64,000 nucleotides of DNA from Burkholderiales bacterium (GTDB lineage: Bacteria > Pseudomonadota > Gammaproteobacteria > Burkholderiales > Burkholderiaceae_C), in assembly GCA_016192425.1 (NCBI GenBank), contig JACPUE010000006.1:1-64000 (forward strand), in the 5' to 3' direction. Made by a program: the position numbers and the translations under genes. The notes under the pieces are model-generated. The model worked only from the letters and a program-made list of their open reading frames with translations. It searched no databases and had not been told where the DNA came from. Positions 1 to 63,940 of the stretch are shown here, one piece after another (within the stretch, counting starts at the first letter, position 1; each line of letters begins with the position of its first letter).

Positions 1-1970
1 CACAACATATAAAACTGCGGTTCACTCATGTAGTGAGCGTAGCGATCGACAGCTTCCTCATCAGACAAAATCACCCGCTCATAACTCTCGCCGTCGCTGG
101 GCTTCACAGCACCAAACCACTTGAATCTCGGCGCAACGACCTGGACAGGATGGGTTGCCGAAATGACACCCTGGGCGGTTGCCTCGAGTGTTGTTTCCCC
201 CTCCACAAGGCCTGTCACTGGAACCGTCACCATGCTGGCTCCCGCAGGGATGGTGACACGCTCAGGCACCGTGCAGACGCTTCCTGAGGAGCATTTCAAG
301 GAAACTTCCAGTGGCACATTGTCAAAAACACCTGCCCCTTCCTTGGTTCGCGCAATGGATATGCCATGGTTTTTTTGCATGCCACTCCCCACTACAACCA
401 CAGGATCAGCGTAGAAAACCAGCACCACCGGCATGCGAACCGACACGTATGCCGAAGAGTCCAAGGCACCTGCAGCAGTGACTCGAACCCATGTATTGCC
501 TTTGTATACGCCGCGCACAGCTATGCCATCCTGCAACTTGGTCGCGCCCTCCGGCACTTTGACTACGGTCTGTACAGGGCTGACGATGTTCGTGTTCAAA
601 GACTCCACATTCACATCAAGCCCATCCACCGGAGCGGGATACGAAAGCGTCAAATCCGTAGATTTTGTCTCTCCCGCAACAATGGCATCCGCAAGCTTTC
701 CAGCGTTCAAATTCAACTGCATTGGGTTTGAGGTGACCCGCTTGGAAATTCGCTTGTAACCCGCACTGCTTGCTGTCAAATCAAACCCGCCAGATGTGGT
801 CGGCTTGAAATTGAATGCAACCTCTTGCTGACCCTCAGGAATTACAACTTCACTCGGCAGTTCGGCCCATCCCGATGGCTCGGTAGCCAATTGGGCCTTG
901 ACCCCTCCCTGGGGCGCCGGGGCAGGCAAACGCACTTTTGCTCGATAACTCATTTGCGTTGCCACGCCCCAATGTTGCGCATCAATGTCCAGTGCCGGCA
1001 ACTCGAAAACCCTGAAATCTGCTTGTGCAGCGCCCAGTTCTGCCTGATCCACTTTCAGCAGACCCGATCCAGTCTGCTGCCCTTGAACAGAAAAAGATAC
1101 TTCCTTGAGTCCTTCAGCAATGACCAACTCTGAGGGGCTTGTGATATACCCTGCAGGCGTAGAAGTGACATTGAGGGTTTTTCCTCCAGTCGAGGCGGGC
1201 TCATCAAGAATGAGCTTTACAGCGGCAGATTCACCCACTCCCACTTGGAAATTCTGTGGCTCAATACGTAATTGATTGCCTGCACCCACCTCAACAAGCC
1301 CACTTTCGATCAGGTATGGTATTCCTTTCAACCCCCATTCAATTTGCCCCGTAACAACTCCAGACGGAAGAAGAATGGCATTAATATCATTACCGACTGC
1401 TTGATTACCAAAACCTGTCGGGGAAGATTTCAAATCAGATTTAATCGCAGGACCAGTATTGTTGACGATTGTCACCCGATTGAACACCGGAGATGCCCCC
1501 TGGACAACAATGCCACTCCCATATTCAAAACGCATGTTTTCAAGAATGGTTTCTGGACTTCTTGTCCCCTGCAAAAACCTCCAAGCCCCCCAATCACCAA
1601 GAGCTTTTACCGGATTATTTGAGGTCACCAGAATGGGTTTTCCGGCCGTCCCAATTGCCTTCAAGGCCCCTTGCCGAACTGCAAAAGATGCGCCAGGCTC
1701 CATACGGACCTCCACCCCAGCCTCAATCGTCAGCGTGGCCCCTTGATCCAGTTCTACATTTCCCTGCAGAATGTAAGGAGAGTCACTGAGGCGCCAGACC
1801 GTGTCGACCGAAACAATGCCTGAAAATCGCGTTTCGGCTGCATAGGCTGAACCGTTTGAACCAAGCGCAATGCCAAAGAAAAGCAGAAAAAGTGCAACCA
1901 GCCGCACAAATAAATTTCCCGAACAGAATACTTGCGCAGGAGGCTTTTTTCCTTGAAGTGTCATGAGCAT
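1..1970 (-). CDS. Large secreted beta-helix / Ig-like surface protein, C-terminus outside the window
   Basis: The frame is open from an ATG at 1970 to the left edge, about 656 codons, so the protein is incomplete. A second in-frame ATG lies at 1964; the first has AAAGA five bases upstream. Residues about 20-40 form a hydrophobic signal peptide ending near AYA-AE. The next 150 residues have parallel beta-helix character (LTIEAGVEVRMEPGASF, then a GT.GKPILVTS segment). After that come repeated beta-rich blocks ending in phrases such as 'PSEVVIPEGQQEVAFNF' and 'PERVTIPAGASMVTVPV', resembling bacterial Ig-like or invasin-like modules. No catalytic motif is visible. Exported adhesin or surface structural protein is inference. 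Its GC content looks lower than that of the housekeeping genes to the right, which fits the neighbouring island remains. Confidence 0.7.
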   Translation of the reverse strand, partial: MLMTLQGKKPPAQVFCSGNLFVRLVALFLLFFGIALGSNGSAYAAETRFSGIVSVDTVWRLSDSPYILQGNVELDQGATLTIEAGVEVRMEPGASFAVRQGALKAIGTAGKPILVTSNNPVKALGDWGAWRFLQGTRSPETILENMRFEYGSGIVVQGASPVFNRVTIVNNTGPAIKSDLKSSPTGFGNQAVGNDINAILLPSGVVTGQIEWGLKGIPYLIESGLVEVGAGNQLRIEPQNFQVGVGESAAVKLILDEPASTGGKTLNVTSTPAGYITSPSELVIAEGLKEVSFSVQGQQTGSGLLKVDQAELGAAQADFRVFELPALDIDAQHWGVATQMSYRAKVRLPAPAPQGGVKAQLATEPSGWAELPSEVVIPEGQQEVAFNFKPTTSGGFDLTASSAGYKRISKRVTSNPMQLNLNAGKLADAIVAGETKSTDLTLSYPAPVDGLDVNVESLNTNIVSPVQTVVKVPEGATKLQDGIAVRGVYKGNTWVRVTAAGALDSSAYVSVRMPVVLVFYADPVVVVGSGMQKNHGISIARTKEGAGVFDNVPLEVSLKCSSGSVCTVPERVTIPAGASMVTVPVTGLVEGETTLEATAQGVISATHPVQVVAPRFKWFGAVKPSDGESYERVILSDEEAVDRYAHYMSEPQFYML

Positions 1971-9031: not shown

Positions 9032-9089
9032 CAAAAAATACCTCCAGCGCCCTACCATCAAGCGTAAGCAGCTATTGATTTAATAGCAA
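9032..9089 (+). repeat. Dispersed AGCAGCTAT...ATAGCA repeat, copy A
   Basis: The segment contains CCTCCAGCGCCCT, AAGCGTAAGCAGCTATTG and ATAGCAAG, closely matching copies near 15331, 22070, 23184, 26462, 44180 and 62768. It lies 14 bases after the rlhA stop. The terminal ATAGC/GCTAT pairing could form a small hairpin. Confidence 0.8.
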
Positions 9090-15325: not shown

Positions 15326-15330
15326 GGGTA

Positions 15331-15388
15331 TTTTTGGCATCCAACGCCCTATTCATAAGCGTTAGCAGCTATTGTTTTTATAGCAAAT
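15331..15388 (+). repeat. Dispersed AGCAGCTAT...ATAGCA repeat, copy B
   Basis: TTTTTGGCATCCAACGCCCT, then AAGCGTTAGCAGCTATTG and ATAGCAAA, same orientation as copy A. It sits between the metY terminator and the start of the diguanylate cyclase gene (ATG 15397), so it forms most of that gene's leader. Confidence 0.8.
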
Positions 15389-22046: not shown

Positions 22047-22069
22047 GGGATGGTCCTTAAAAAAAATGA

Positions 22070-22130
22070 TTAAATTGGAGCCTGGCGCTTATATATAAAG
22101 CGCCAGCAGCTATATTTTTGATAGCAAATA
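22070..22130 (+). repeat. Dispersed AGCAGCTAT...ATAGCA repeat, copy C
   Basis: Contains GGCGCTTATATATAAAGCGC (a local palindrome), CAGCAGCTATATTTTTG and ATAGCAAA. It lies ten bases after the rhuM stop (rhuM is read leftwards). Direct-repeat partner of copy D on the other side of rhuM. Confidence 0.75.
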
Positions 22131-23258: not shown

Positions 23259-26200
23259 TCACCCCACCCACTTGCGCGCATTGCGCCACAGCCGCATCCA
23301 GGGGCTGAAGGCGCTGGGGCTGCCCGCGGCGGCGTGGTCCATCCAGCTCATCTGGATGTTGCGGAACACGCGCTCGGGGTGCGGCATCATGGCCGTGAAG
23401 CGGCCGTCCGCGGTGGTCACCGCCGTCAGGCCGCCGGGGCTGCCGTTGGGGTTGAACGGGTACTGCTCGGTGGCCGCGCCCGCGTGGTCCACAAAGCGCA
23501 TGGCCGCGATGGCCTGGTTGGCGTTGCCCCGGTACTTGAAGTTGGCATAGCCCTCGCCGTGCGCCACGGCGATGGGCAGGCGGCTGCCTGCCATGCCTTG
23601 CAGGAACAGGCTGGGCGATTCGAGCACTTCCACCAGCGACAGGCGGGCCTCGAAGCGCTCGCTCTGGTTGGTGGTGAAGCGCGGCCAATCCTGCGCGCCG
23701 GGGATGATGTCGGCCAGTTCGGCGAACATCTGGCAGCCGTTGCACACGCCCAGGCCAAAGGTGTCCTGGCGCGCGAAGAAGCCCTGGAACTGCTCGGCCA
23801 GCACCGGGTTGAAGGTGATGGAACGCGCCCAGCCGATGCCCGCGCCCAGCGTGTCGCCGTAGCTGAAGCCGCCGCAGGCCACGACGCCCTTGAAATCCTC
23901 CAGGCGGGCGCGGCCGCTCTGCAGGTCGGTCATGTGCACGTCGTGCGCCTCGAAGCCCGCTTCGGTGAAGGCGTAGGCCATTTCCACGTGCGAGTTCACG
24001 CCCTGCTCGCGCAGCACGGCCACCTTGGGTTTGGAAAGGTTGAGGTACGGCGCGGCAACGTCCTGGGCCGGATCGAACGTGAGGTGCACGTGCAGGCCCG
24101 CATCGCCTGGGGCACCGGCAGCCGCGTGTTCGGCGTCGGCGCAGGCGGGGTTGTCGCGGCGCTGGCAGATCTGCCAGCTCACGCTGTCCCAGACCTGGTT
24201 CAGGTCTTCGAGCTTGGCACTGAAGATGGCCTTGGCGTCGCGCCACACCTGCAGTTCGCCCTTGCCCGCGGCAATGGGGCTGGCTGCGGGCCGCGTCTTG
24301 CCCACGAAATGGCTGCAGGCCGAGAGGCCGTGGGCGCGCAGGGTTTGCATGATGTCGTTGCGCTCGGCGGTGCGTACCTGCAGCACCACGCCCAGTTCTT
24401 CGCTGAACAGCGCCTTGAGCGTCAGCTCGTCGCGCCGCCCGCCCACCTGCTGTGCCCAGTTCTTGGCGTCGCCCGTGTCCATGCGGCTGTCGTGGATGCC
24501 GTCGCCCTCGGTGACCAGCATGTCCACGTTCAGCGCCACGCCCACGTGGCCCGCAAAGGCCATCTCGGCCACGGCGGCGAGCAGGCCGCCGTCGCTGCGG
24601 TCATGGTAGGCCAGGATCTGGCCCTTGGCGCGCAGCGCGTTCACGGCGTCCACCAAACGCACCAGGTCTTGCGCGTCGTCCAGGTCGGGCACCTCGTCGC
24701 CCGCCTGATCCAGCACTTGGCCCAGGATGCTGCCGCCCATGCGGTACTTGCCGCGTCCCAGGTCGATGAGCACCAGGGTGGTGTCGGGCTCGGTGGCGTC
24801 AAGCTGCGGCGTGAGCGTGCCGCGCACGTCCTGCAGCGTGGCAAAGCTGCTCACGATCAGGCTCACAGGCGAGACCACCTTGCGGTTCGTGTCGCCGTCC
24901 TTCCACTGCGTGCGCATGGACAGGCTGTCCTTGCCCACGGGGATGCTGATGCCCAGTTGCGGGCACAACTCCATGCCCACGGCCTTGACGGTGGCGTACA
25001 GGTCGGCGTCCTCGCCGCTCTCGCCGCAGGCGGCCATCCAGTTGGCCGACAGCTTCACACGTGGCAGCTCGATGGGTGCAGCGAGCAGGTTGGTGATGCT
25101 TTCGGCCACCGCCATGCGGCCCGAAGCGGCGGCGTTCAGGGCGGCCAGCGGCGTGCGCTCGCCCATGGCCATGGCCTCGCCCGCAAAGCCCTTGTAGTCG
25201 GCCAGCGTGACGGCGCAATCGGCCACAGGCACCTGCCAGGGGCCTACCATCTGGTCGCGGTGCGTGAGGCCGCCCACGGTGCGGTCGCCGATGGTGACGA
25301 GGAAGCGCTTGGACGCCACGGTGGGGTGGCTCAGCACGTCGATCACGGCCTTTTGCAGCGGCACGCCGGTCAGGTCGATGGGCTGAAGCGGGCGCTGCAC
25401 GCTGGCCACGTCGCGGTGCATCTTGGGCGGCTTGCCCAGCAGCACGGACATGGGCATGTTGACAGGCGCCCCCACGCTCCCCACTGCGTGTGGTTCGCTG
25501 CCCCCCAAGGGGGCCGCGCTTGCTTGGGGCGGCCCGGCGCGGCGCGCCGCCGCCCCCTCAAAAGCGTCCTCGAAGGCCACCACCAGGTCACGCTCTTCGG
25601 TGGCCACCCCAATCACGGCAAAGGGGCAGCGCTCACGTTCGCAAAAACGCCGAAACAACTCCAGCGATTCGGGCGCAATGGCCAACACGTAGCGTTCCTG
25701 GCTTTCGTTGCTCCAGATTTCCTTGGGCGCCAGGCCCGATTCTTCGAGCGGCACGGAGCGCAAATCAAAGCGTGCGCCCCGGCCCGCGTCATTCGTCAGC
25801 TCGGGGAAGGCGTTGGACAGGCCGCCCGCGCCCACGTCATGGATGGCCAGGATGGGGTTGACCTCGCCCTGCGCCCAGCAGTGGTTGATGACCTCCTGCG
25901 CGCGGCGCTCGATCTCGGGGTTGCCGCGCTGCACGGAGTCAAAGTCCAGCTCGGCGGCGTTCTGGCCCGTGGCCATGGAGCTGGCCGCGCCGCCGCCCAT
26001 GCCGATGCGCATGCCGGGGCCGCCCAGTTGCACCAGCAGCGTGCCCGCGGGGAATTCAATCTTGTGCGTGAGCCGCGCGTCAATGCTGCCCAGCCCGCCC
26101 GCGATCATGATGGGCTTGTGGTAGCCGCGCTGCACACCGCCCACCTGCTGCTCGTATTCGCGGAAATAGCCCGCCAGGTTGGGGCGGCCAAACTCGTTGT

Positions 26201-27362
26201 TGAACGCGGCGCCGCCCAACGGCCCCTCGGTCATGATCTGCAGCGGGCTGGCAATGTGCTCGGGCTTGCCGCCGGGCTGGTCGCTCAGGCCGCCCCAGAG
26301 CTTGGACACGGTGAAGCCCGTGAGGCCCGCCTTGGGTTCGGAGCCGCGCCCGGTAGCGCCCTCGTCGCGGATCTCGCCGCCCGCGCCGGTGGAGGCGCCG
26401 GGGAAGGGCGAGATGGCCGTGGGGTGGTTGTGCGTTTCCACCTTCATCAGCACATGCTGCAGAATGCTATCTTTTTGATAGCTGCTTGCGCTTATTCCTT
26501 GGGCGCTGGAGGCCATTTTTGCCACAAAACGCTCGACCGTATGGCCTTCCATCACCGAAGCGTTGTCGGAGTAGGCCACCACAGTGTGCTGCGGGCTGGT
26601 CTGGTGCGTGTGGCGGATCATGCCGAACAGGCTCTTGTCCTGCGCCACGCCGTCGATGGTGAACTGGGCGTTGAAGATCTTGTGGCGGCAGTGCTCGCTG
26701 TTGGCCTGCGCGAACATCATCAGTTCCACGTCCGTGGGGTTGCGCTGCAGGCCCTGGAAGGCGTTGACGAGGTAGTCGATCTCGTCGTCGGCCAGCGCCA
26801 GGCCCCAGCGGGTGTTGGCATCCTCCAGCGCTGCGCGGCCGCCGCCGAGCACGTCCACATGCTCCATGGGCTGGGGCGGCAGTTCGGAGAACAGTGCCTG
26901 CGCGTCGGCCAGGTCGAACAGCACGGACTCGGTCATGCGGTCGTGCAGCAGTGCGGCCACCTGGGCCCGCTGCTCTGGCGACAGCGTGGGGCGGCTCAGC
27001 AGGCCGTGCTGCATCTGCACGCGGTATTCCAAGACCCGCTCGACGCGGCGCACCTGCAGACCGCAGTTGCGCGCAATGTCGGTGGCCTTGGAGGCCCAGG
27101 GCGACACCGTGCCCAGGCGCGGCGTGACGATGATGGCCGCGCCATCCTGCGGGCCCTGGTACGGGTCGCCGTAGGTCAGCAGTGCGGCCAGGCGCTCGTG
27201 CTGCCCGGGCGTAGGAGGTGCGTCGGTGGCCACCAGGTGTACGAAGCGCGCCGCGATGGCGGCAATCTTCGGGTGGATGGCTTCGAGTGCGGGCTGGAGT
27301 TGCTGGGCGCGAAAGGGGCTGAGGGCGTTGCCGCCCGCAATCGTGGTCAGGTGCAAGGTCAC
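23259..27362 (-). CDS. purL: Phosphoribosylformylglycinamidine synthase (FGAM synthase), carrying two in-frame repeat insertions
   Basis: Fourth step of purine synthesis: FGAR + Gln + ATP to FGAM. The single-chain type has an N-terminal PurS-like part, two AIR-synthase-like halves ('[36 protein letters not shown]', '[11 protein letters not shown]') and a C-terminal glutamine amidotransferase with '[13 protein letters not shown]', nucleophile motif VCNGCQ and 'AVAHGEGYA'. The length is 1367 residues against about 1295 in E. coli. Part of the excess comes from two segments that are dispersed repeats read as protein: '[17 protein letters not shown]' before LMKVETH (DNA 26462-26519) and '[21 protein letters not shown]' before [10 protein letters not shown] (about 25466-25560). 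Both keep the frame. GTG 27362 ([11 protein letters not shown]) is the likely start; the frame is open further upstream, but that part is not conserved. Divergent from map. Confidence 0.95.
25466..25560 (-). repeat. Second-type dispersed repeat (GGCAGCGAACCACACG...) inside purL
   Basis: On the coding strand the block reads from a GC-rich palindromic part (GGCGGCGCGCCGC) through GGCCGCCCCAAGCAAGCG and CCCCCTTGGGGGGCAGCG to ACCACACGCAGTGGGGAGCG, patterns I recognise as a common intergenic element in Comamonadaceae. Here it encodes about 30 in-frame residues with no counterpart in typical PurL. Boundaries are approximate. Confidence 0.7.
26462..26519 (-). repeat. Dispersed AGCAGCTAT...ATAGCA repeat, copy E, inside purL
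   Basis: On the coding strand: AAAAATGGCCTCCAGCGCCC, then AATAAGCGCAAGCAGCTATC and ATAGCATTC. This aligns almost base for base with copy A at 9032 (AAAAATACCTCCAGCGCCC, AAGCGTAAGCAGCTATTG, ATAGCAAG). It is translated in frame within FGAM synthase. Confidence 0.85.
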
Positions 27363-27516
27363 TTTGACGGCCTGGGTGGGTGGTGTGGGAGAAGAGGCGC
27401 CTGCAGGCAGGCGGTTTCGGGGCGTTGCCACGGGAACCGGCGATTTTACCGGGCGGGGGGAAGGACATGGGGCCCGCGCCAGCACGGCATGCAGGCCGAT
27501 GGGATAATTGCGCCGC

Positions 27517-28332
27517 ATGAGCATCACCATCAAAGACGCCGAGGGCATCGCTGGCATGCGCAAGGCCTGCCGCCTCGCATCGGAAGTTCTGGACTACATC
27601 GCCCCGCACATCCAGCCGGGCATCACCACCGCTGAAATCGACCGCCTGGGCGCCGAATGCATGGCCCGCCAGGGCACACGCTCGGCCACCATTGGCTACC
27701 AGCCGCCGGGCTACCCGGCCTACCCTGCTTCGCTGTGCACCTCGGTCAACCATGTGGTGTGCCACGGCATCCCCAACGACAAGCCGCTCAAGAAAGGCGA
27801 CATCGTCAACGTGGACGTCACCGTCATCACCGACGAGGGCTGGTACGGCGACAACAGCCGCATGTACCTGATCGGCGAATGTTCCATTGCCGCCAAGCGC
27901 CTGTGCGCCATCACCTTCGAGGCCATGTGGCACGGCATCCTGCAGGTGCGGCCCGGCGCGCGCCTGGGCGACATTGGCCACGCGATCCAGAAGTTCGCCG
28001 AAGGCCACGGTTTTTCGATCGTGCGCGAATTCTGCGGCCACGGCATCGGCAAGAACTTCCACGAAGAACCCCAGGTGCTGCACTACGGCCGCCCCGGCAC
28101 GCTTGAAGAGCGCAAGCCCGGCATGGTGTTCACCATCGAGCCCATGATCAACGCGGGCCGCCGCGACATCAAGGAACTGGGCAACGACGGCTGGACCATC
28201 GTCACCAAGGACCACAGCCTGTCGGCCCAATGGGAGCACACAGTGCTGGTCACGCCCACGGGCTACGAGGTGATGACGCTCTCGGCCGGCTCGCCCCCAC
28301 TGCCCTCCTTCGTTACAGCCACAGCGACCTAA
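27517..28332 (+). CDS. map: Methionine aminopeptidase type I
   Basis: Removes the initiator methionine from nascent proteins. The 271-residue product has the pita-bread fold motifs in order: '[14 protein letters not shown]' (His), '[23 protein letters not shown]' (metal Asp pair), '[21 protein letters not shown]' (metal His) and '[11 protein letters not shown]...[13 protein letters not shown]' (two metal Glu). ATG 27517 is preferred to an in-frame ATG nine bases earlier because [17 protein letters not shown] matches family starts. It is divergent from purL and lies 35 bases upstream of glnD on the same strand, so map-glnD may be cotranscribed. Confidence 0.95.
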
Positions 28333-43070: not shown

Positions 43071-44176
43071 GTCAACCCCGTATCCACTACACGGCGCTCC
43101 AGCGCCAGGAATTCCTTGGACTGCATCTCGTTGAGCCGCGAGACCGTGCGTGGGAATTCGTGGGCCAGCGGGCCATCGGTATAAAGCTGTTCGGGCGCCA
43201 CGGCCGCTGACAGGATGAGCTTGACGCGGCGGTCGTACAGCACGTCGATCAGCCAGGTAAAACGCCGCGCAGGCGAGGCCATGCTCACGGGCATGTGGGG
43301 CACATCGGAGAGCAGCACGGTATGGAACTGCGATGCGATCTCCAGGTAGTCGTTCTGCGAGCGCGGGCCGCCGCACAGCGTTTTGAAATCGAACCAGACC
43401 ACGCCGCCCGCCTTGCGCCGCGCCTGGATCTCGCGCGCCTCGATATTCAGCACCGGGTCTTCGTCATGCACCTCGGCCAGTTGGTCGAAGGCCGCGTTCA
43501 TCGCCACGTCTGCCTCGGGGCCCAGGGGCGTGTGGTAGAGCTTGACCTGCTCCAGCGTGCGCCGCCGGTAGTCGGTGCCGTTGTCCACGTTGATGACTTC
43601 GAGCTTCTGCTTGAGCAGCGCAATGGCGGGCAGGATGCGGTCGCGGTGCAGGCCGTTGGGGTACAGGCCGTCCGGCTCGAAATTGGACGTGGTGACAAAG
43701 CCCACGCCGTTGTCGAACAGCGCCGCCAGCAGGCGGTGCAGGATCATGGCGTCGGTGATGTCCGCCACATGGAATTCGTCGAAGCAGATGAGCTTGTAGC
43801 GCTTGGCAATGCGCTGGCCCAGCACGTCCAGCGGGTTCTGCGTGCCCTGCAGCGCCGCCAGCTCGCGGTGCACCTCGCGCATGAATTCATGGAAGTGCAA
43901 ACGCACCTTGCGCTTGAGCGGCACGGCGTTGAAGAAGCAGTCCATGAGGAAGCTCTTGCCGCGCCCCACCCCGCCATACATGTACACGCCGCGCGGAATG
44001 TCGGGCCGGTGGATGAGCTTCTTGAGTGCGTTCGAGCGCTGCGTCTTGTAGGCAGCCCATTCGCGCGCACAGCGGTCCAGCGCCTCCACAGCGCGCAGTT
44101 GCGCGGGGTCGCTCTGGAAACCCTTGGCCTCCAATTCGGCCTGGTAGGCGGCCTTGACGCTGGCAATGGGACTCAT
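43067..44176 (-). CDS. zapE: Cell division protein ZapE (AFG1-like ATPase)
   Basis: A 369-residue P-loop ATPase. Walker A is 'YMYGGVGRGKSFLMDCFF' near residues 67-80 and Walker B is 'KLICFDEFHVADITDAMIL'. 'FVTTSNFEPDGLYPNGLHRDRILPAI' and 'RFTWLIDVLYDRRVKLILSAA' are AFG1/ZapE hallmarks. In E. coli ZapE binds FtsZ and the insertase YidC under low oxygen or stress. It lies upstream of a secreted coiled-coil gene with an ATGA overlap. A repeat-derived hairpin separates it from lpdA. Confidence 0.95.
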   Translation of the reverse strand: MSPIASVKAAYQAELEAKGFQSDPAQLRAVEALDRCAREWAAYKTQRSNALKKLIHRPDIPRGVYMYGGVGRGKSFLMDCFFNAVPLKRKVRLHFHEFMREVHRELAALQGTQNPLDVLGQRIAKRYKLICFDEFHVADITDAMILHRLLAALFDNGVGFVTTSNFEPDGLYPNGLHRDRILPAIALLKQKLEVINVDNGTDYRRRTLEQVKLYHTPLGPEADVAMNAAFDQLAEVHDEDPVLNIEAREIQARRKAGGVVWFDFKTLCGGPRSQNDYLEIASQFHTVLLSDVPHMPVSMASPARRFTWLIDVLYDRRVKLILSAAVAPEQLYTDGPLAHEFPRTVSRLNEMQSKEFLALERRVVDTGLT

Positions 44177-44179
44177 ATG

Positions 44180-44235
44180 CTATAAAAACAATAGCTGCTA
44201 GCGCCCTATTTACGGGCGCTAGCAGCTATTTTTCC
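44180..44235. terminator. Dispersed-repeat copy F: 17-bp perfect inverted repeat between lpdA and zapE
   Basis: Arms 44190-44206 and 44214-44230 are exact reverse complements around TATTTAC (left arm AATAGCTGCTAGCGCCC). On the minus strand the hairpin is followed by GTTTTTATAGC, so it can act as an intrinsic terminator for lpdA. The sequence is the same repeat family (AGCAGCTAT/ATAGC) arranged as a full palindrome. Confidence 0.75.
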
Positions 44236-45950: not shown

Positions 45951-47237
45951 TCAAATATCAAACAGCAGGCGGGACGGGTCTTCCAGCGCGTCCTTCATGG
46001 CGACCAGGCCCAGCACGGCTTCGCGGCCGTCGATGATGCGGTGATCGTAGGACATGGCGAGGTAGTTCATCGGGCGCACCACGACCTGGCCGTTCTCCAC
46101 CACGGCACGGTCCTTGGTGGCGTGCACACCCAGGATGGCCGACTGCGGCGGGTTGATGATGGGGGTGGACATCATCGAGCCGAAGGTGCCGCCGTTGGAG
46201 ATGGAGAAGGTGCCGCCGGTCATTTCCTCGATGCCCAGCTTGCCTTCGGCAGCCTTCTTGCCGAATTCGGCAATCTTCTTCTCGATGTCGGCGAAGCTCA
46301 TTTGGTCTGCGTTGCGCAGGATGGGCACCACCAGGCCGCGGGGCGAACCCACGGCGATACCGATGTCGAAGTAGCCGTGGTAGACGATGTCGTTGCCATC
46401 GACCGATGCGTTGAGCACGGGGAACTTCTTGAGGGCGTGCACGGCGGCCTTCACGAAGAAGCTCATGAAGCCGATCTTCACGCCGTGTTCCTTGGTGAAG
46501 GCATCCTGGAACTTCTTGCGCATCTCCATCACCGGGGCCATGTTCACTTCGTTGAACGTGGTCAGGCTGGCATTGGTGGATTGCGACTGCAGCAGGCGCT
46601 CGGCCACGCGGGCGCGCAGGCGGCTCATGGGCACGCGCTGCTCGGGGCGGTCGCCCAGGCTGGGGGCGGCAGGGGCGGCCACCTGGGGCAGTGCCTTGGT
46701 GGGCACGCCGGTGGGGATCACGCTGGCAGCAGCCGGGGCGGCAGGCTTGGCACCGCCCGCCACGGCAGCCAGCACATCGCCCTTGGTCACGCGGCCGTCC
46801 TTGCCGGTGCCAGCCACATCGCCGACGGACAGCTTGTTGTCGGCCAGCAGCTTGGCGGCTGCAGGCATGGCCACATCGCCCTTGGCGCCACCCGTTGCCG
46901 CAGCAGCGGCAGGTGCAGGCGCTGCAGCGGCAGCCACAGCGGCAGCCACAGGGGCAGCAGCAGCGGCTGCCGCAGGCGCGGCCGCACCGGCCTTGCCTTC
47001 GGTGTCGATCTTGGCGATGAGCTGCTCGGCCACCACGGTGCCACCATCGCCCACCACGATTTCGGCCAGCACACCGGCTGCGGGCGCGGGCACTTCGAGC
47101 ACGACCTTGTCGGTCTCGATCTCGATCAGGATTTCATCGGCGGCGACGGCCTCTCCGGCCTTCTTCTTCCAGTTCAGCATCGTGGCTTCGGCCACGGACT
47201 CGGACAGCTGGGGGACTTTGACTTCTACGATAGCCAT
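45951..47237 (-). CDS. sucB: 2-oxoglutarate dehydrogenase E2, dihydrolipoyllysine succinyltransferase
   Basis: The 428-residue E2 core of the 2-oxoglutarate dehydrogenase complex. The N-terminal lipoyl domain has the modified lysine in '[17 protein letters not shown]'. A long Ala/Pro linker follows, then a peripheral-subunit-binding domain ('[31 protein letters not shown]'), a second linker and the acyltransferase domain ending in '[19 protein letters not shown]' with the catalytic His and Asp. It is 53 bases downstream of sucA on the same strand. Confidence 0.96.
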
Positions 47238-47290: not shown

Positions 47291-50170
47291 TTACTTGGTC
47301 AGGACAAAACCCTTGAGCTTGGCGAAGGCTGCATCGACCAGGGCCTTCTGTTGCTCCTGGTGCAGGTGCGAGTAGCCCACGGCAGGCGAAGCCGAGGCCG
47401 CACGACCGGCATAGCCGAGCTTCTGGCCTTCAAGCATGTTCTCGTGGATGTTGTGCTGGATGAAGAACCAGGCGCCCTGGTTCTGCGGCTCGTCCTGGCA
47501 CCACACGATCTCGGTGGCATGGGCGTACTTCTTGAGTTCGGCCGCGAATGCCTTGTGCGGGAAGGGATAGAGCTGCTCCACGCGGATGATGGCCACATCG
47601 CCAATTTCATTCTCGGTGCGCTTCTTCACGAGGTCGTAGTACACCTTGCCCGAGCAGGCAATCACGCGCTTGACCTTGTCGGCCTTCTTGCAGATCGCTT
47701 GATCCTGCTCAGGAATCACGGTCTGGAAGGCGCCCTTGGTGAACTCGGACAGCGGCGAGGTGGCGTCCTTGTTGCGCAGCAGGCTCTTGGGCGTAAAGAT
47801 GACCAGGGGCTTGCGCAGGTTGCGCACCATCTGGCGGCGCAACACATGGAAGATCTGGCTGGCCGTGGTGGGCTGCACGATCTGCATATTGGCGTCTGCG
47901 GCCAGCTGCATGAAGCGTTCGACACGCGCAGAGCTGTGCTCGGGGCCCTGGCCTTCGTAGCCGTGCGGCAGCATCAGCGTGATGCCGTTGACGCGGCCCC
48001 ACTTGACCTCACCCGAAGCGATGAACTGGTCGATCACCACCTGCGCGCCGTTGGCGAAGTCGCCAAACTGGGCTTCCCAGATCACCAGGGTGTTCGGGTC
48101 GTTGGAGGCGTAGCCGTACTCGAAGCCCAGCACTGCCTCTTCGGACAGGATGGAGTCGATCACGACGAACGGAGCCTGGTTCTCGGCCACGTTCTGCAGG
48201 GGCACGTAGGTGCCGGTGTCCCACTTCTCGCGCTTCTGGTCGTGGATCACGGCGTGGCGGTGCGTGAAGGTGCCCCGGCCGCAGTCCTCGCCCGACAGGC
48301 GCACGGGGTAGCCGCTGGCCACGAGCGAGGCAAAGGCCATGTGTTCGCCCATGCCCCAGTCCACCGGAATGTCGCCCCGGCCCATGGCAGCGCGGTCGTC
48401 ATAGACTTTTTTCACCAACTGGTGCGGGGTGACGGTGTCGGGCAGCGTGGTGAGCTTTTCCGACAGGCGCTTCCATTCGGTCAGGGGAATTGCGGTATCG
48501 CCCGCATCGGTCCACTTCTTGCCCAGGAACGGGCTCCAGTCCACCGCGTACTTGCTCTTGAAGTTGGTCAGCACCGGATCGACCGTGTGCTTGCCTGCAT
48601 CCATGGCGGCGCGGTAGGCCTTGACCATTTCGTCCGGGCCGTCCGCCGCCAGCACGCCCTGGGTCACCAGCTTGTCGCCATAGAATCTGCGCGTTCCGGG
48701 GTGGGCGGCGATTTTCTTGTACATCAGGGGCTGGGTCAGCGCGGGCGTATCTTGCTCGTTGTGGCCCAGCTTGCGGAAGCAGGTGATGTCCACCACCACG
48801 TCCTGGCGGAATTCCATGCGGAACTCCAGGGCCAATTGCGTAGCCAGCACCACGGCTTCAGGGTCGTCGCCGTTGACGTGCAGCACTGGGGACTCGACCA
48901 TCTTGACGATGTCGGTACAGAAAGTGCTGGAGCGCATGTCGCGCGGGTCGGAGGTGGTGAAGCCGATCTGGTTGTTGATGATCAGGTGCACCGTGCCGCC
49001 GGTGGTGTAGCCACGGGTCTGGGCCAGGCACAGGGTTTCCTGGTTCACGCCCTGGCCGCCAAAAGCAGCGTCGCCGTGCACCAGCACGGGCAGCACCTGG
49101 TCGCCCCGGGCGTCGCCACGGCGGTCCATGCGTGCACGCACCGAGCCTTCGACCACGGGGTTGACGATTTCCAGGTGCGAAGGGTTGAAGGCCAGGCTCA
49201 GGTGCACCGGGCCGCCGGGGGTGGACACGTCCGAGCTGAAGCCCTGGTGGTACTTCACGTCGCCTGCAGGCAGGTCTTCTGGGGCCGTGTGGTCGAATTC
49301 AGCGAACAGGTCAGCGGGCATCTTGCCCAAGGTGTTGACCAGCACGTTCAGACGGCCACGGTGGGCCATGCCGATCACGATTTCCTGCACGCCCTTGGCG
49401 CCAGCCTGCTGGATCAATTCGTCCATGGCAGCGATGAAGCTCTCGCCGCCTTCCAGCGAGAAGCGCTTCTGGCCCACGTATTTGGTGTGCAGAAAGCGCT
49501 CCAGGCCTTCGGCGGCCGTCAGGCGATCCAGGATCTGCTTCTTTTTCTCGGCGCTGAATTGGGGCTTGCCGCGGATGGATTCCAGTTTTTGCTGCCACCA
49601 GCGTTTTTCTGCCTGGTCAGAGGTGTACATGAACTCGGCACCCAAGGTGCCGCAGTAGGTCTCGTGCAGCGCGTTGATGAGCTCGCGCAGCGACATCTTG
49701 TCCTTGCCAAAAAAGGTGTTGCTCGTATCGAACACCGTTTCCTGGTCAGCGTCGCTGAAGCCATAGAACGACGGCTCCAGTTCGGGAATGGCGGGACGCT
49801 CCGTGCGCTTGAGGGGATCCAGATCGGCCCAGCGCTGGCCCACGTTGCGGTAGGCGGCAATCAGTTGCTGCACCGCCGTGCGCTTGCGGCCCATCTCGGC
49901 GTTTTCGCTGGCCACCACCACCTTGGTGCCACCGGCCTTGGCGCGCTCGGCAAAGGCATTGATGACGGGCATGTGGGGCACGTCGCGGGCATTGCTGCCA
50001 TCGACGGCAGGCACGTGCTGCAGCGCATCGAAGTATTCGCGCCAGGTGTCGGGCACGCTGCCCGGATTGGCCAGATAGTTTTCGTACATCTCTTCGACAT
50101 AGGGCGCATTGCCGCCGAAGAGGTAGGTATTGCCTTGATAGGCTTGATAGACGGATGTCGTATCGCTCAT
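47291..50170 (-). CDS. sucA: 2-oxoglutarate dehydrogenase E1
   Basis: The thiamine-diphosphate decarboxylase of the TCA cycle, 959 residues. The N-terminal helix carries '[33 protein letters not shown]'-type sequence (here '[20 protein letters not shown]'). The ThDP site is '[14 protein letters not shown]' and the '[17 protein letters not shown]' region, and the transketolase-like half has '[19 protein letters not shown]', '[20 protein letters not shown]' and '[31 protein letters not shown]'. First gene of sucA-sucB-lpdA. The 257-bp gap upstream to the divergent PerM gene should hold its promoter; no other feature was recognised there. Confidence 0.97.
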
Positions 50171-50427
50171 GTTCCGCTGACCTCCGTCTCCCTGGGGGAG
50201 ACATTAGCTGGTTGAAAAAACCTTCCGCGACACGGCTGAACCGGTTGGCGGATGCGACTGTGGCTGGGGAAGGGCCGAGTACGGGCGCCATTGTGCCACT
50301 GTTCGCCCCAGGCCGCTTGTGGTTTTTCCTATCGCGGCCCGGTGCCCGCCCGCAGGAACGCTGCAACCGGTTGGCAGCCACAGAGGTGGCGTACATTCGC
50401 ATTCTGTTTCAACGGACTGCGCTGGCC

Positions 50428-56897: not shown

Positions 56898-56908
56898 GTG
56901 AGGCTTGT

Positions 56909-56984
56909 TCCTCGATAGCTCAGTCGGTAGAGCGCCGGACTGTTAATCCGTAGGTCCCTGGTTCGAGCCCAGGTCGAGGAGCCA
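56909..56984 (+). tRNA. tRNA-Asn (GTT), first copy
   Basis: A 76-nt cloverleaf with acceptor stem TCCTCGA/TCGAGGA, anticodon loop CTGTTAATC (anticodon GTT), T-loop GTTCGAGCC and encoded CCA. It precedes an almost identical second copy by 17 bases. Confidence 0.95.
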
Positions 56985-57001
56985 AAAATTCATGCCGATT
57001 T

Positions 57002-57077
57002 TCCCCGATAGCTCAGTCGGTAGAGCGCCGGACTGTTAATCCGTAGGTCCCTGGTTCGAGCCCAGGTCGGGGAGCCA
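57002..57077 (+). tRNA. tRNA-Asn (GTT), second copy, prophage attachment gene
   Basis: Differs from the first copy at two bases only, which form a compensatory pair in the acceptor stem (TCCCCGA/TCGGGGA), so both copies look functional. The 3' half (57036-57077) is also the antisense of the last 13 codons and stop of the adjacent serine recombinase, marking the probable attL of the element to the right. Confidence 0.95.
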
Positions 57078-58604
57078 ATTACTGGCACTGCGAATCTTCG
57101 CACTGCCGGGCACCGTCACAAGACATTCGGGGTGGTAGTCCACCACCACCTCATCATCCTTGATGGTGATTTCTTTGACGAAGGCCCCCAAGAACTCGCG
57201 CAGCTTCTTGGGGTCTTGGCAGTCCATCACAAGCCCGCGCAACACCTCGGCAGCGTCCTCGGGGTCGATGTAGGGCATTTCTGCCAGATTCATGGGTTCC
57301 TCTTCCAGCGCCTGTAGCGAGGACTCCAGGGCCTTGATGCGTGCGTTCCAGTCCCGCAGGCGGTGCGTGAGGTCTGCGAGGTTGGGGGCGTCTTGGCCGT
57401 GGAGCTCCAGCAGCGCATAGAGGTTGGAGCGGGCTTTTTCGGCTGCACGAAGCTCGCCCACCAGCGCCGTGCGTCGGCCGGTGCGTTCTTTGGCCCAGTC
57501 TCCGCGCCGGGTCTGTGCTTCGGCAATGATGTCGGCCATGCGGTCTGGGGTGAGCACCTGATCCAGCAGCTCGGACAGCATCCAGTCGTCGAACAGGTCG
57601 GCGCGCACGCGCTTGAAGCCGCAGCGCTCTTTTCCGCTGAGCACGCCCCTGCATCCGTAGTAGTAGTAAACCCGGCTTCGCCCTGTACCGCTGCAAGTTT
57701 GCAACATGGAGCCACAGCAGCCGCAACGCAGCATGCCGGTGAAGGCGAGATTGCTTCGCGGCTGGCCGCCTACGTTCTCGGGGTGACGGTCGATCATGGT
57801 TTGCTGCACTTTCTCAAAATCGTCTGGGCTCACAAGTGCGGGGTGGCTGAGCACTTTTACCCAGTCTTCCACGGGGTTGACGGTGCGCTTGTTGGTGCGG
57901 TTGAAGACCGTCCAGCCCGCATACACCTGGTTGCGCAAGATGTAGTTCACCGCGTTCTTGGTGAATGGTTTGCCGCGCAGTGTCAGGCCCTGGCCGTTCA
58001 GGCTCAAGGCGATCAGCTTGCAGCCCGCCCCGCGCAACGACATGGAAAAGACCTGCTGCACTGCAGCCGACTCTGTAGGGTGCACCGCCAGGCGCTTGCG
58101 CTTGCCTTCCGCAACGGTCAGATACCCAAACGGCACCCGCCCACCCAGAAAGTAGCCCTCTCGGGCGGCCTTGAGCATGGAGCGCCTGGTGTCGCTGGCG
58201 ACCTGGCGCGAGTAGCGCTCATCGATGACGGCGCCGATGGCGTCCACAAACCAGCCGTCGTCGGTGCGCAGATCCACTTCGCTGCACGAATAGACCAGGC
58301 GGGTGCCGTAGCGCTCCAGCATGTGCTTGTAGTGCCCGGCGTCGAGGTGGTTGCGGGCGAAGCGGCTGGATGACCAGCAGATGAAGTAGTCCACGTCCAT
58401 CACGGCGCAGTAGTTCAGCGCCTCTTGGAACGATGGACGCCGGTCGGTGGTGCCCGAAAAACCACCGTCCACAAAGACCTTGGCCACCACGGCGCCCAGG
58501 GCCTCGGCCTTGGTGCGGCAGTGCTCGATCTGGCTTTCCACGGGCAGGCCATCGTCGGCCTGGCGCTTGGTGCTGACGCGGGCGTAAATGATGGCGCGCT
58601 TCAT
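57036..58604 (-). CDS. Large serine recombinase (prophage integrase)
   Basis: A 522-residue serine recombinase. The resolvase domain has the nucleophile in 'IIYARVSTKRQ' (Ser11), 'FVDGGFSGTTDRRPSFQEAL' and 'YFICWSSSRFARN'. The Recombinase domain follows (about 160-270, 'TKNAVNYILRNQVYAGWTVFNRTNKR'), then a zinc ribbon with CGCC and a second Cys pair ('LRCGCCGSMLQTC', 'GCRGVLSGKERC'), and a helical coiled-coil tail. The final residues 'NWLPDLGSNQGPTD' and the TAA stop are read from the tRNA-Asn sequence in antisense, so the gene end depends on the integration junction. The start at ATG 58604 overlaps the stop of the upstream small gene in an ATGA. Confidence 0.93.
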   Translation of the reverse strand: MKRAIIYARVSTKRQADDGLPVESQIEHCRTKAEALGAVVAKVFVDGGFSGTTDRRPSFQEALNYCAVMDVDYFICWSSSRFARNHLDAGHYKHMLERYGTRLVYSCSEVDLRTDDGWFVDAIGAVIDERYSRQVASDTRRSMLKAAREGYFLGGRVPFGYLTVAEGKRKRLAVHPTESAAVQQVFSMSLRGAGCKLIALSLNGQGLTLRGKPFTKNAVNYILRNQVYAGWTVFNRTNKRTVNPVEDWVKVLSHPALVSPDDFEKVQQTMIDRHPENVGGQPRSNLAFTGMLRCGCCGSMLQTCSGTGRSRVYYYYGCRGVLSGKERCGFKRVRADLFDDWMLSELLDQVLTPDRMADIIAEAQTRRGDWAKERTGRRTALVGELRAAEKARSNLYALLELHGQDAPNLADLTHRLRDWNARIKALESSLQALEEEPMNLAEMPYIDPEDAAEVLRGLVMDCQDPKKLREFLGAFVKEITIKDDEVVVDYHPECLVTVPGSAKIRSASNWLPDLGSNQGPTD

Positions 58605-63839: not shown

Positions 63840-63940
63840 CCTCCTGCTTCCAAACAGGGTGGCGGCCCGAACGTGGGTTGGAAGACCGATGAGGCACCGG
63901 CGAGCCTTGCGGCTCCCCACGCCCGAGCCGCCGAAAACGT
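63840..63940 (-). ncRNA. C4-type phage antisense RNA
   Basis: On the minus strand GGCGGC pairs with GCCGCC and CCCACG with CGTGGG to form the outer stem; GAGCC/GGCTC forms an inner hairpin around TTGC-type sequence. Two loop words are complementary to sequence just downstream. GTGCCTCAT (63889-63897) pairs with ATGAGGCAC at the ribosome-binding site of the next gene (63813-63821), and CTTCCAA (63878-63884) with TTGGAAG (63847-63853). A pair of a'/b' words matching a''/b'' targets is the defining plan of the C4 RNA of P1/P7-type phages. Ends are approximate, and identity with the Rfam C4 family is not tested. Confidence 0.65.

Follow-up and report, generated by a model that had tools for sequence, protein, structure and literature searches.

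A dispersed palindromic repeat read in frame within purL tends to match the repeat dialect of its own genome

Why should an essential gene carry, in its reading frame, a copy of a repeat that is otherwise dispersed between genes? The original prediction for this locus was that purL, encoding FGAM synthase, had domesticated a mobile-like repeat without loss of frame. We examined it in the window, meaning the whole 64,000-nucleotide stretch analysed, which lies on contig C41 of a 3.67-Mb genome in 68 contigs (G000); named relatives place it in the Comamonadaceae. The repeat is indeed where it had been placed: an nhmmer profile trained on 94 copies, with the purL copy excluded, recovered it, the frame is open across it, and the ORF is PurL (Table 1). 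The intergenic copies claimed at 9032, 15331, 22070, 23184 and 44180 were likewise all recovered, the fourth as a weaker match. The GTG start given for purL, at about 27362, is a guess within an ORF that spans 23259-27563. The repeat segment directly precedes a 10-residue PurL stretch in the same reading frame. The window PurL also matched the Salmonella-type PurL structure 1t3t, which we take to come from Salmonella; an AlphaFold model of a PurL fragment had a mean pLDDT of 61.8, with the loop region mostly under 50-60.

Table 1. Coordinates of purL and of the repeat copies in the window.
Feature	Coordinates	Strand	Evidence
Repeat element inside purL, in frame, 20 residues	26463..26522	-	nhmmer 52.8 bits, model 3-62 of 63, purL not in training; exact pattern
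Exact core of the purL copy	26465-26486	-	exact pattern
purL, FGAM synthase (phosphoribosylformylglycinamidine synthase)	23259..27362	-	NCBIfam NF003672 2012 bits, TIGR01735 1770 bits
Degenerate copy about 20 nt past the purL stop codon	23187..23238	+	nhmmer 20.8 bits; orthologous position in G006, G017, G009, G004
Intergenic copy, 10 nt past a stop codon (own gene calls)	9032..9089	+	nhmmer 51.3 bits; also in G006
Intergenic copy	15330..15387	+	nhmmer 45.6 bits; also in G006
Intergenic copy	22069..22128	+	nhmmer 45.8 bits; also in G017, G004
Intergenic copy, near-perfect long palindrome	44176..44235	-	nhmmer 51.1 bits; also in G017

A genome-wide exact-pattern search of G000 for AGCAGCTAT-N7-ATAGCA returned 95 copies (47 forward, 48 reverse), against none for the reversed pattern. 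Within the window, the same arms with a spacer of 5 to 12 nt gave 5 matches, all with N7, and 0 in 100 shuffles; together with the 52.8 bits of the held-out profile, these counts place the match between the purL DNA and the genomic copies far above chance, as had been proposed. Alignment of the copies gives a motif some 60 nt long (GC content 41.5%) made of an A-rich lead, then GGCCTCYAGCGC..GCGC, then GCAGCTAT-N7-ATAGCA, a composite palindrome of two inverted repeats, AGCGC..GCGCT (in G000) and GCTAT-N7-ATAGC. In 342 kb of G000 (the window plus the surroundings of copies), the profile found 6 additional copies above 18 bits and none with the reversed control; extrapolation from these and the 95 exact copies puts the total at roughly 160. 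Exact copies are present in 23 of the 26 genomes of the genus and in 37 of 150 family genomes. No copy was found in a phage search, and a plasmid search found one, on a Diaphorobacter plasmid, where it covers the final 22 nt of cobN and extends to the annotated start of the next gene. An Rfam scan of the window at gathering score gave 5 matches, none of them at a repeat copy. Folded as a single strand, the purL copy reached -13.0 kcal/mol (5 of 200 shuffles were equally good) and the typed consensus -17.9 kcal/mol; the RNA fold of the 44176 copy was strong, at -34.9 kcal/mol, and covariation across the 95 copies amounted to a single weak pair. The modest folds of the purL copy and the consensus, with covariation nearly absent, favour recognition of the sequence over RNA structure.

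Seven window genes served to train a gene caller of our own, with which we determined the placement of the repeat for the 79 of 80 copies outside genes that had both neighbours called. The neighbours were convergent in 23 cases, co-oriented in 55 and divergent in 1, and the median distance was 3.5 nt to the 102 adjoining stop codons and 15 nt to the 57 starts. Intergenic copies thus lie close against stop codons and keep away from divergent promoters. About 1 copy in 7 lies in frame inside a gene: 13 of 95 according to a codon model trained on seven chosen window genes and 14 according to the gene caller, 12 being common to both. The thirteen genes encode PurL, MetG, LeuS, ThiL, RecC, RmlD, CobU, a MatE transporter, an enoyl-CoA hydratase (ECH), an acyl-CoA dehydrogenase, an SDR, a Glyoxalase_3 protein and a urate-oxidase-like protein; all 12 ORFs other than purL match Pfam families, and the element runs in the direction of the gene in 6 of the thirteen and opposite to it in 7. 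A KOPS-like strand-biased motif was considered and rejected. With dnaA located and the terminus assumed to lie opposite, the lagging strand carried 35 of 55 copies in G006 (p 0.058), 57 of the 84 listed, out of 91, in G132 (p 0.0014), 17 of 28 in G090 (p 0.34) and 21 of 38 in G038 (p 0.63). A dif pattern search gave no match.

If the repeat had been added to PurL, the length of the protein should tell. The loop delimited by MEG..HV, obtained from 20 of the 26 genus genomes, is 34 aa long in 17 members, where it matches the profile at 14-53 bits, and 29 aa long, with no match, in G001, G015 and G022, which have 0 exact copies each. The 17 residues said to have been added therefore overstate the case: the net gain is 5 aa relative to the genus members without exact copies and 7 aa relative to Salmonella PurL, not 17-20. 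We then compared 108 family PurLs (the 20 from the genus, the 28 best family matches and 60 chosen by hand), counting loops of at least 33 aa as long. The loop was long in 67 and short in 41, and exact-core repeats were present in 50 of the 67 long-loop genomes vs 2 of the 41 short-loop genomes (p=1.7e-13, a statistic that ignores phylogeny); when relaxed counts, from 29 genomes searched, were added, the figures became 60 of 67 vs 2 of 41. One of the two short-loop genomes with exact copies, G082, has an element-like loop of 31 aa (19.6 bits). The relaxed core GCTAT-N7-ATAGC was sought in 14 of the 17 long-loop genomes that have no exact copies: ten contained 13-278 (reversed 0-3), three 5-7 (reversed 0) and one 0, while fifteen short-loop or outgroup genomes contained 0-5. 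A long loop without good repeat evidence was seen in seven genomes: G064, G048, G161 and G129, which the relaxed search covered, and G097, G108 and G100, in which exact copies alone were sought. Relaxed counts of 278 in G166, 298 in G114 and 184 in G157, vs 2-3 reversed, indicate that some relatives carry many copies in other dialects.

Composition and phylogeny were also compared. A or T occupies 44% of third positions in long loops vs 11% before the loop, and 18% vs 12% in short-loop genes; among the 17 long-loop genus members, the figure was 45% of motif codons vs 12% of the region's other codons. Having or lacking exact copies makes no difference to the excess among long-loop genomes (p=0.95), but it does to the profile score (p=1.5e-6). 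The purL score rises with copy number, with a Spearman coefficient of 0.83 over 20 genomes and 0.72 over the 17 long loops. On a quick tree built from PurL minus the loop, with SH-aLRT support only and 55 of 104 inner branches weak, the loop changes between long and short 17 times, and the short-loop G001, G015 and G022 group with the long-loop G004 and G016 (SH-aLRT 95). In 5 independent long/short contrasts across well-supported branches, the repeats changed in the same direction in 3.9 and in the opposite direction in 0.0 on average, too few for a firm test (p 0.125).

The repeats vary from genus to genus, as dialects do, and this allowed us to ask which of them the purL loop resembles. Four clearly different subfamilies were read from aligned copies. 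Those of G166 read ..CGGCGTATTTATTGCCTATAGT-GCTAT, those of G058 ..CCCAGGTAAATACTGCTCAAGCA-GCTAT and most of those of G068 CCCAGCGTGAAATGGTC..GCTAT, and in all three genomes the purL loop fits, by eye, the genome's own copies; the 45-aa loop of G166 also has the CAAAAATATATG-like lead found in some G166 copies. For 14 genomes we scored the 60 nt before GCTAT, always excluding purL from the copies, which numbered from 1 per genome (five genomes) to 91 (G000; 30 or 25 randomly drawn). In 10 of the 14, the genome's copies ranked their own purL first among the 14 purLs, and 0 of 20,000 permutations did as well; elsewhere the own purL came second (G068), third (G066 and G086) or fifth (G161). In the reverse direction, own copies were the best for 9 of the 14 purLs. 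With the test restricted to the 9 genomes having at least 3 copies, and to 45 nt, the own purL was first in 8 of 9 (1 of 50,000 permutations). Thus, the purL loop tends to match the dialect of its own genome. The check originally suggested, whether relatives lack the insert or carry its residues in DNA unrelated to the repeat, had a third outcome: related residues are present in them, but the DNA of each relative tends to match its own repeat family. That a coding site in purL follows the repeats of its own genome across genera suggests a recogniser or drive common to both.

We next asked how the coding copies evolve. The 12 in-gene copies of G000 were compared with G017 and G006, two non-independent relatives, and motif positions were classed by an information profile built from 82 copies outside the in-gene list; since the copies had been chosen by their match in G000, the choice works against a finding of constraint. 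At codon positions 1/2/3, substitutions per site were 0.086/0.081/0.112 at high-information positions, 0.209/0.175/0.417 at low-information positions and 0.063/0.042/0.185 in the flanks. Overall, 87 of 936 high-information sites were substituted vs 110 of 432 low-information sites (p=2.5e-14). High-information third positions were substituted less often than those of the flanks (p=0.0013), and first plus second positions were slightly more variable than the flanks (p=0.0037; both p values from rounded counts). The positions that define the motif are therefore nearly without a third-position excess, a sign of selection on the DNA. In purL alone the pattern was weaker (high 0.139/0.062/0.210, low 0.175/0.354/0.446), and pairwise codon identity in purL showed no excess in the motif (0.698 vs 0.729 elsewhere).

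We favour, with a probability of about 0.6, the reading that a lineage-specific DNA recognition motif, REP-like in its size and placement, has long had one of its coding sites in this segment of purL, and that selection or drive acting at the DNA level keeps it there. This reading takes up what is directly observed: the membership of the segment in the repeat family, its spread over genera, dialect matching in most of the genomes tested, constraint independent of codon position in the in-gene copies compared and the association of loop length with repeats. A putative sequence-specific factor would recognise the motif; selection, or a drive (biased DNA uptake, for instance), would maintain the sites one by one and re-tune them when the specificity of the recogniser shifts. 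A tolerant PurL loop would accept whatever peptide the dialect spells, and in a lineage losing the system it would drop the motif and shrink by about 4-5 residues. Site-by-site upkeep by a reader of the motif fits best and also explains this joint loss; no such recogniser was found in this analysis. By our estimate, the motif holds more information than a single binding site would need at about 100 sites, which suits copying by descent too. Also weighing against the reading are the seven long-loop genomes short of repeat evidence, the four genomes whose own purL did not rank first, the small number of independent contrasts, the single weak covarying pair, an A/T excess indifferent to exact copies, and the weaker constraint pattern and lack of a codon-identity excess in purL.

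An alternative, which we regard as unlikely, is a selfish repeat resembling the Rickettsia palindromic elements (RPEs): a mobile palindrome that entered gene loops in frame, that of purL at an early stage of the family, and has since been retained or has decayed. According to the review PMC10969869, RPEs too are palindromes, and unrelated metabolic genes carry them as translated, in-frame parts. Such an origin would account for the three reading frames used by the in-frame copies (two sense, one antisense), for A/T-rich codons foreign to the host gene, for loops that are longer where elements exist and for the extra length over the motif relative to solved homologs, which is +7 aa in PurL and ThiL, +6 in LeuS, +12 in the SDR, about +14 in CobU and about +10 in the ECH. 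However, RmlD and the acyl-CoA dehydrogenase differ by only +2 and MatE by 0 or fewer, and none of the nine readable genes gains the expected 19-20 aa or so; the comparison leaves out RecC, Glyoxalase_3 and the urate-oxidase-like protein, and the MetG linker was unreadable. Pure in-frame insertion of a whole element was rejected on these differences, which run from 0 to 14 aa and are never about 20. The same conclusion comes from 50 orthologs of the 12 non-purL genes, taken from six genus members at 2 to 6 per gene, 44 of which align without gaps across the motif and its neighbourhood, so that the motif overlays native coding sequence. Gaps were confined to MetG in G001 (-3 aa), CobU in G001 (-5), G004, G016 and G009, and the urate-oxidase-like gene in G009 (-2). 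Even G001, with 0 exact copies, was gap-free in three of the five genes compared (LeuS, RmlD and MatE), and had no worthwhile motif score in any of the five.

Further observations stand against insertion. The positions are common to several species, and every new dialect would have to re-insert in frame at the same spot of purL. A profile search for PF01797 (Y1/RAYT-type) gave 0 matches in G000 despite its 95 copies, though 22 of the 26 genus genomes, element-bearing ones included, have at least 1. According to the available part of PMC10969869, RPEs are integrated insertions of about 150 bp, whereas the purL element is about 60 nt long, brings no whole-element gain, sits at positions shared between species and is under DNA-level constraint. 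Insertion of a mobile repeat followed by domestication, as originally proposed, is not supported: the segment is common to most element-bearing genera sampled, and no 57-60-nt gain is seen relative to element-free relatives. The orthologous positions of the window copies, the lack of a PF01797 match in G000 and the fact that no clean empty site was seen speak against it too, and the segment does not look like a recent in-frame arrival. Where relatives could be compared, they carry the window's repeats at matching places, with diverged flanks; none of the sites around them could be interpreted as cleanly empty, and at 9032 the aligned flanks are 202 nt apart in G001 vs 334 in G000, too diverged to read. 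Both purL sites, the one in the gene and the worn one past its stop codon, were seen at the same places in G006, G017, G009 and G004.

The preferred reading calls the motif REP-like, and the likeness is partial. REP/BIME elements, as defined in the available passages of PMC12306157, are short palindromic repeats of high copy number between genes and near stop codons, with a group 'within 15 nt of a stop codon'. A REP/RAYT system would have some 100 or more palindrome copies near gene ends, and G000 has 95 exact copies, or roughly 160 in all by extrapolation, with 23 convergent and 1 divergent among the 79. The purL element is unlike REP/BIME in its length of about 60 nt, its two overlapping inverted repeats, the roughly 1/7 of copies inside genes, the absence of PF01797 from G000 and the lineage dialects matched by a coding site. 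By eye, the copy alignment showed no GTAG or CGTC end tag of the REP/RAYT kind (PMC3733652, in part), and the names of Comamonadaceae were not found in the available text of that paper. A RAYT link was rejected, since PF01797 is absent from G000 and present in three genus genomes without exact copies (4 matches in G001, 4 in G015 and 3 in G022).

A special form of the preferred reading, rather improbable in our view, makes the element a relative of DUS/USS with a longer word and fewer copies: a DNA uptake signal whose sites biased uptake and recombination would pull towards the dialect of the receptor wherever the sequence permits. The DUS of Neisseriaceae, in the portions of PMC3630211 available, likewise form lineage dialects of a genome-wide motif that follow phylogeny, occur within genes and stand as inverted pairs with terminators at gene ends. 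Verminephrobacter eiseniae, listed as a member of the Comamonadaceae in a table of PMC3110155, is naturally transformable with a suspected sequence preference according to passages of PMC4212676, which name no uptake sequence proper to it. Against this, the element is about 60 nt long with 95-300 copies, vs about 10 nt and roughly 940-3800 copies for DUS (PMC3630211, in part), and most copies lie at gene ends. A DUS would be a word of some 10 nt with at least about 1000 copies, whereas the counts for this long motif range from 95 to about 300. The element differs from a DUS in its length, in its copies per genome and in the fraction of them lying at gene ends.

Gene conversion, by which dispersed copies including that in purL overwrite each other and purL would thereby track the dialect of the genome, appears very improbable. 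It would account for the dialect matching and for higher purL scores in genomes with more copies. It also predicts long shared tracts, whereas purL matches no other copy exactly over more than 22 nt (median over all copies, 24); moreover, by eye, the N7 spacer of each in-gene copy remains particular to its gene even though the arms conform to the consensus, and orthologous copies share private features. Finally, an accidental resemblance or protein convergence, although the PurL loop is variable and Ser/Ala-rich, is refuted by the shuffles (0 of 100) and reversed pattern (0), the held-out score of 52.8 bits, the dialect matching and the A/T third positions.

Related motifs have been recorded before. 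For Acidovorax ebreus and Polaromonas naphthalenivorans, the section on motifs of PMC5217627 (2017) lists spaced motifs as potentially novel and unexplained; it holds no in-frame, dialect or constraint analysis. The A. ebreus motif, GCTTAT-N5-AAGCG, has 114 copies there, 107 intergenic and 5 in genes, near gene ends, with 44 convergent, 4 divergent and 59 co-oriented neighbours. When the published string was compared with the G000 copies, it occurred exactly in 14 of 95 and in relaxed form in 59 of 95; the G000 sequence examined held 25 occurrences, 14 of them inside an exact-core copy. The A. ebreus motif is probably part of the purL-element family. The Polaromonas motif ATAGCT-N22-CAAAAG was found in 0 of 13 loci checked. 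BRE, in the available description of PMC3110155, is also a dispersed repeat of Comamonadaceae and Bordetella with some copies in genes, but is about 90 bp long with 69% GC in Bordetella, vs about 60 nt and 41.5% GC here. Among the top-ranked matches in the open literature, we found no paper on in-frame copies, dialects or a purL link of this family.

The usual view of dispersed palindromic repeats is that they are selfish or extragenic; here the coding site of an essential enzyme follows the repeats of its own genome. The locus offers an example of protein sequence shaped by selection at the DNA level, and it warns that an in-frame repeat need not be an insertion; the purL loop could serve as a built-in tracer of the recogniser or drive, through contrasts between genomes with and without repeats or across dialects. 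A broader proposal, possible though a little short of an even chance, is that the Comamonadaceae have a genome-wide 'address' system: a long palindromic word in genus dialects with a co-evolving reader, which might be an uptake receptor or a nucleoid or replication/segregation protein, whose sites would be written into PurL, LeuS and MetG at a cost in amino acids and rewritten when the dialect changes.

Several other features were noted in the window and its relatives. Past the glnD-like ORF, at the position orthologous to about 30960 of the window, G006 has about 150 nt of intergenic DNA with inverted repeats, GGGCCTGTTCACACTATT..AATAGTGTGAACAGGCCC, at its ends; it is absent at the same place in G000 and G017, is MITE-like and is unrelated to the purL repeat. 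An Ala-rich, low-complexity coding repeat (family D7; 46897-46992) lies in a gene that by eye is dihydrolipoamide acyltransferase-like. A sucA RNA motif (RF01070, 86.3 bits) at 50175-50257 on the minus strand stands just upstream of a minus-strand ORF starting at 50170 that appears to be sucA-like. A tandem pair of tRNA genes occupies 56908-57078 on the plus strand, the two being 97% alike over 78 nt with a start-to-start distance of 93 nt. Near the end of the window, at 63855-63938 on the minus strand, lies a C4 antisense RNA (RF01695, 59.5 bits), presumably an immunity RNA of the phage type.
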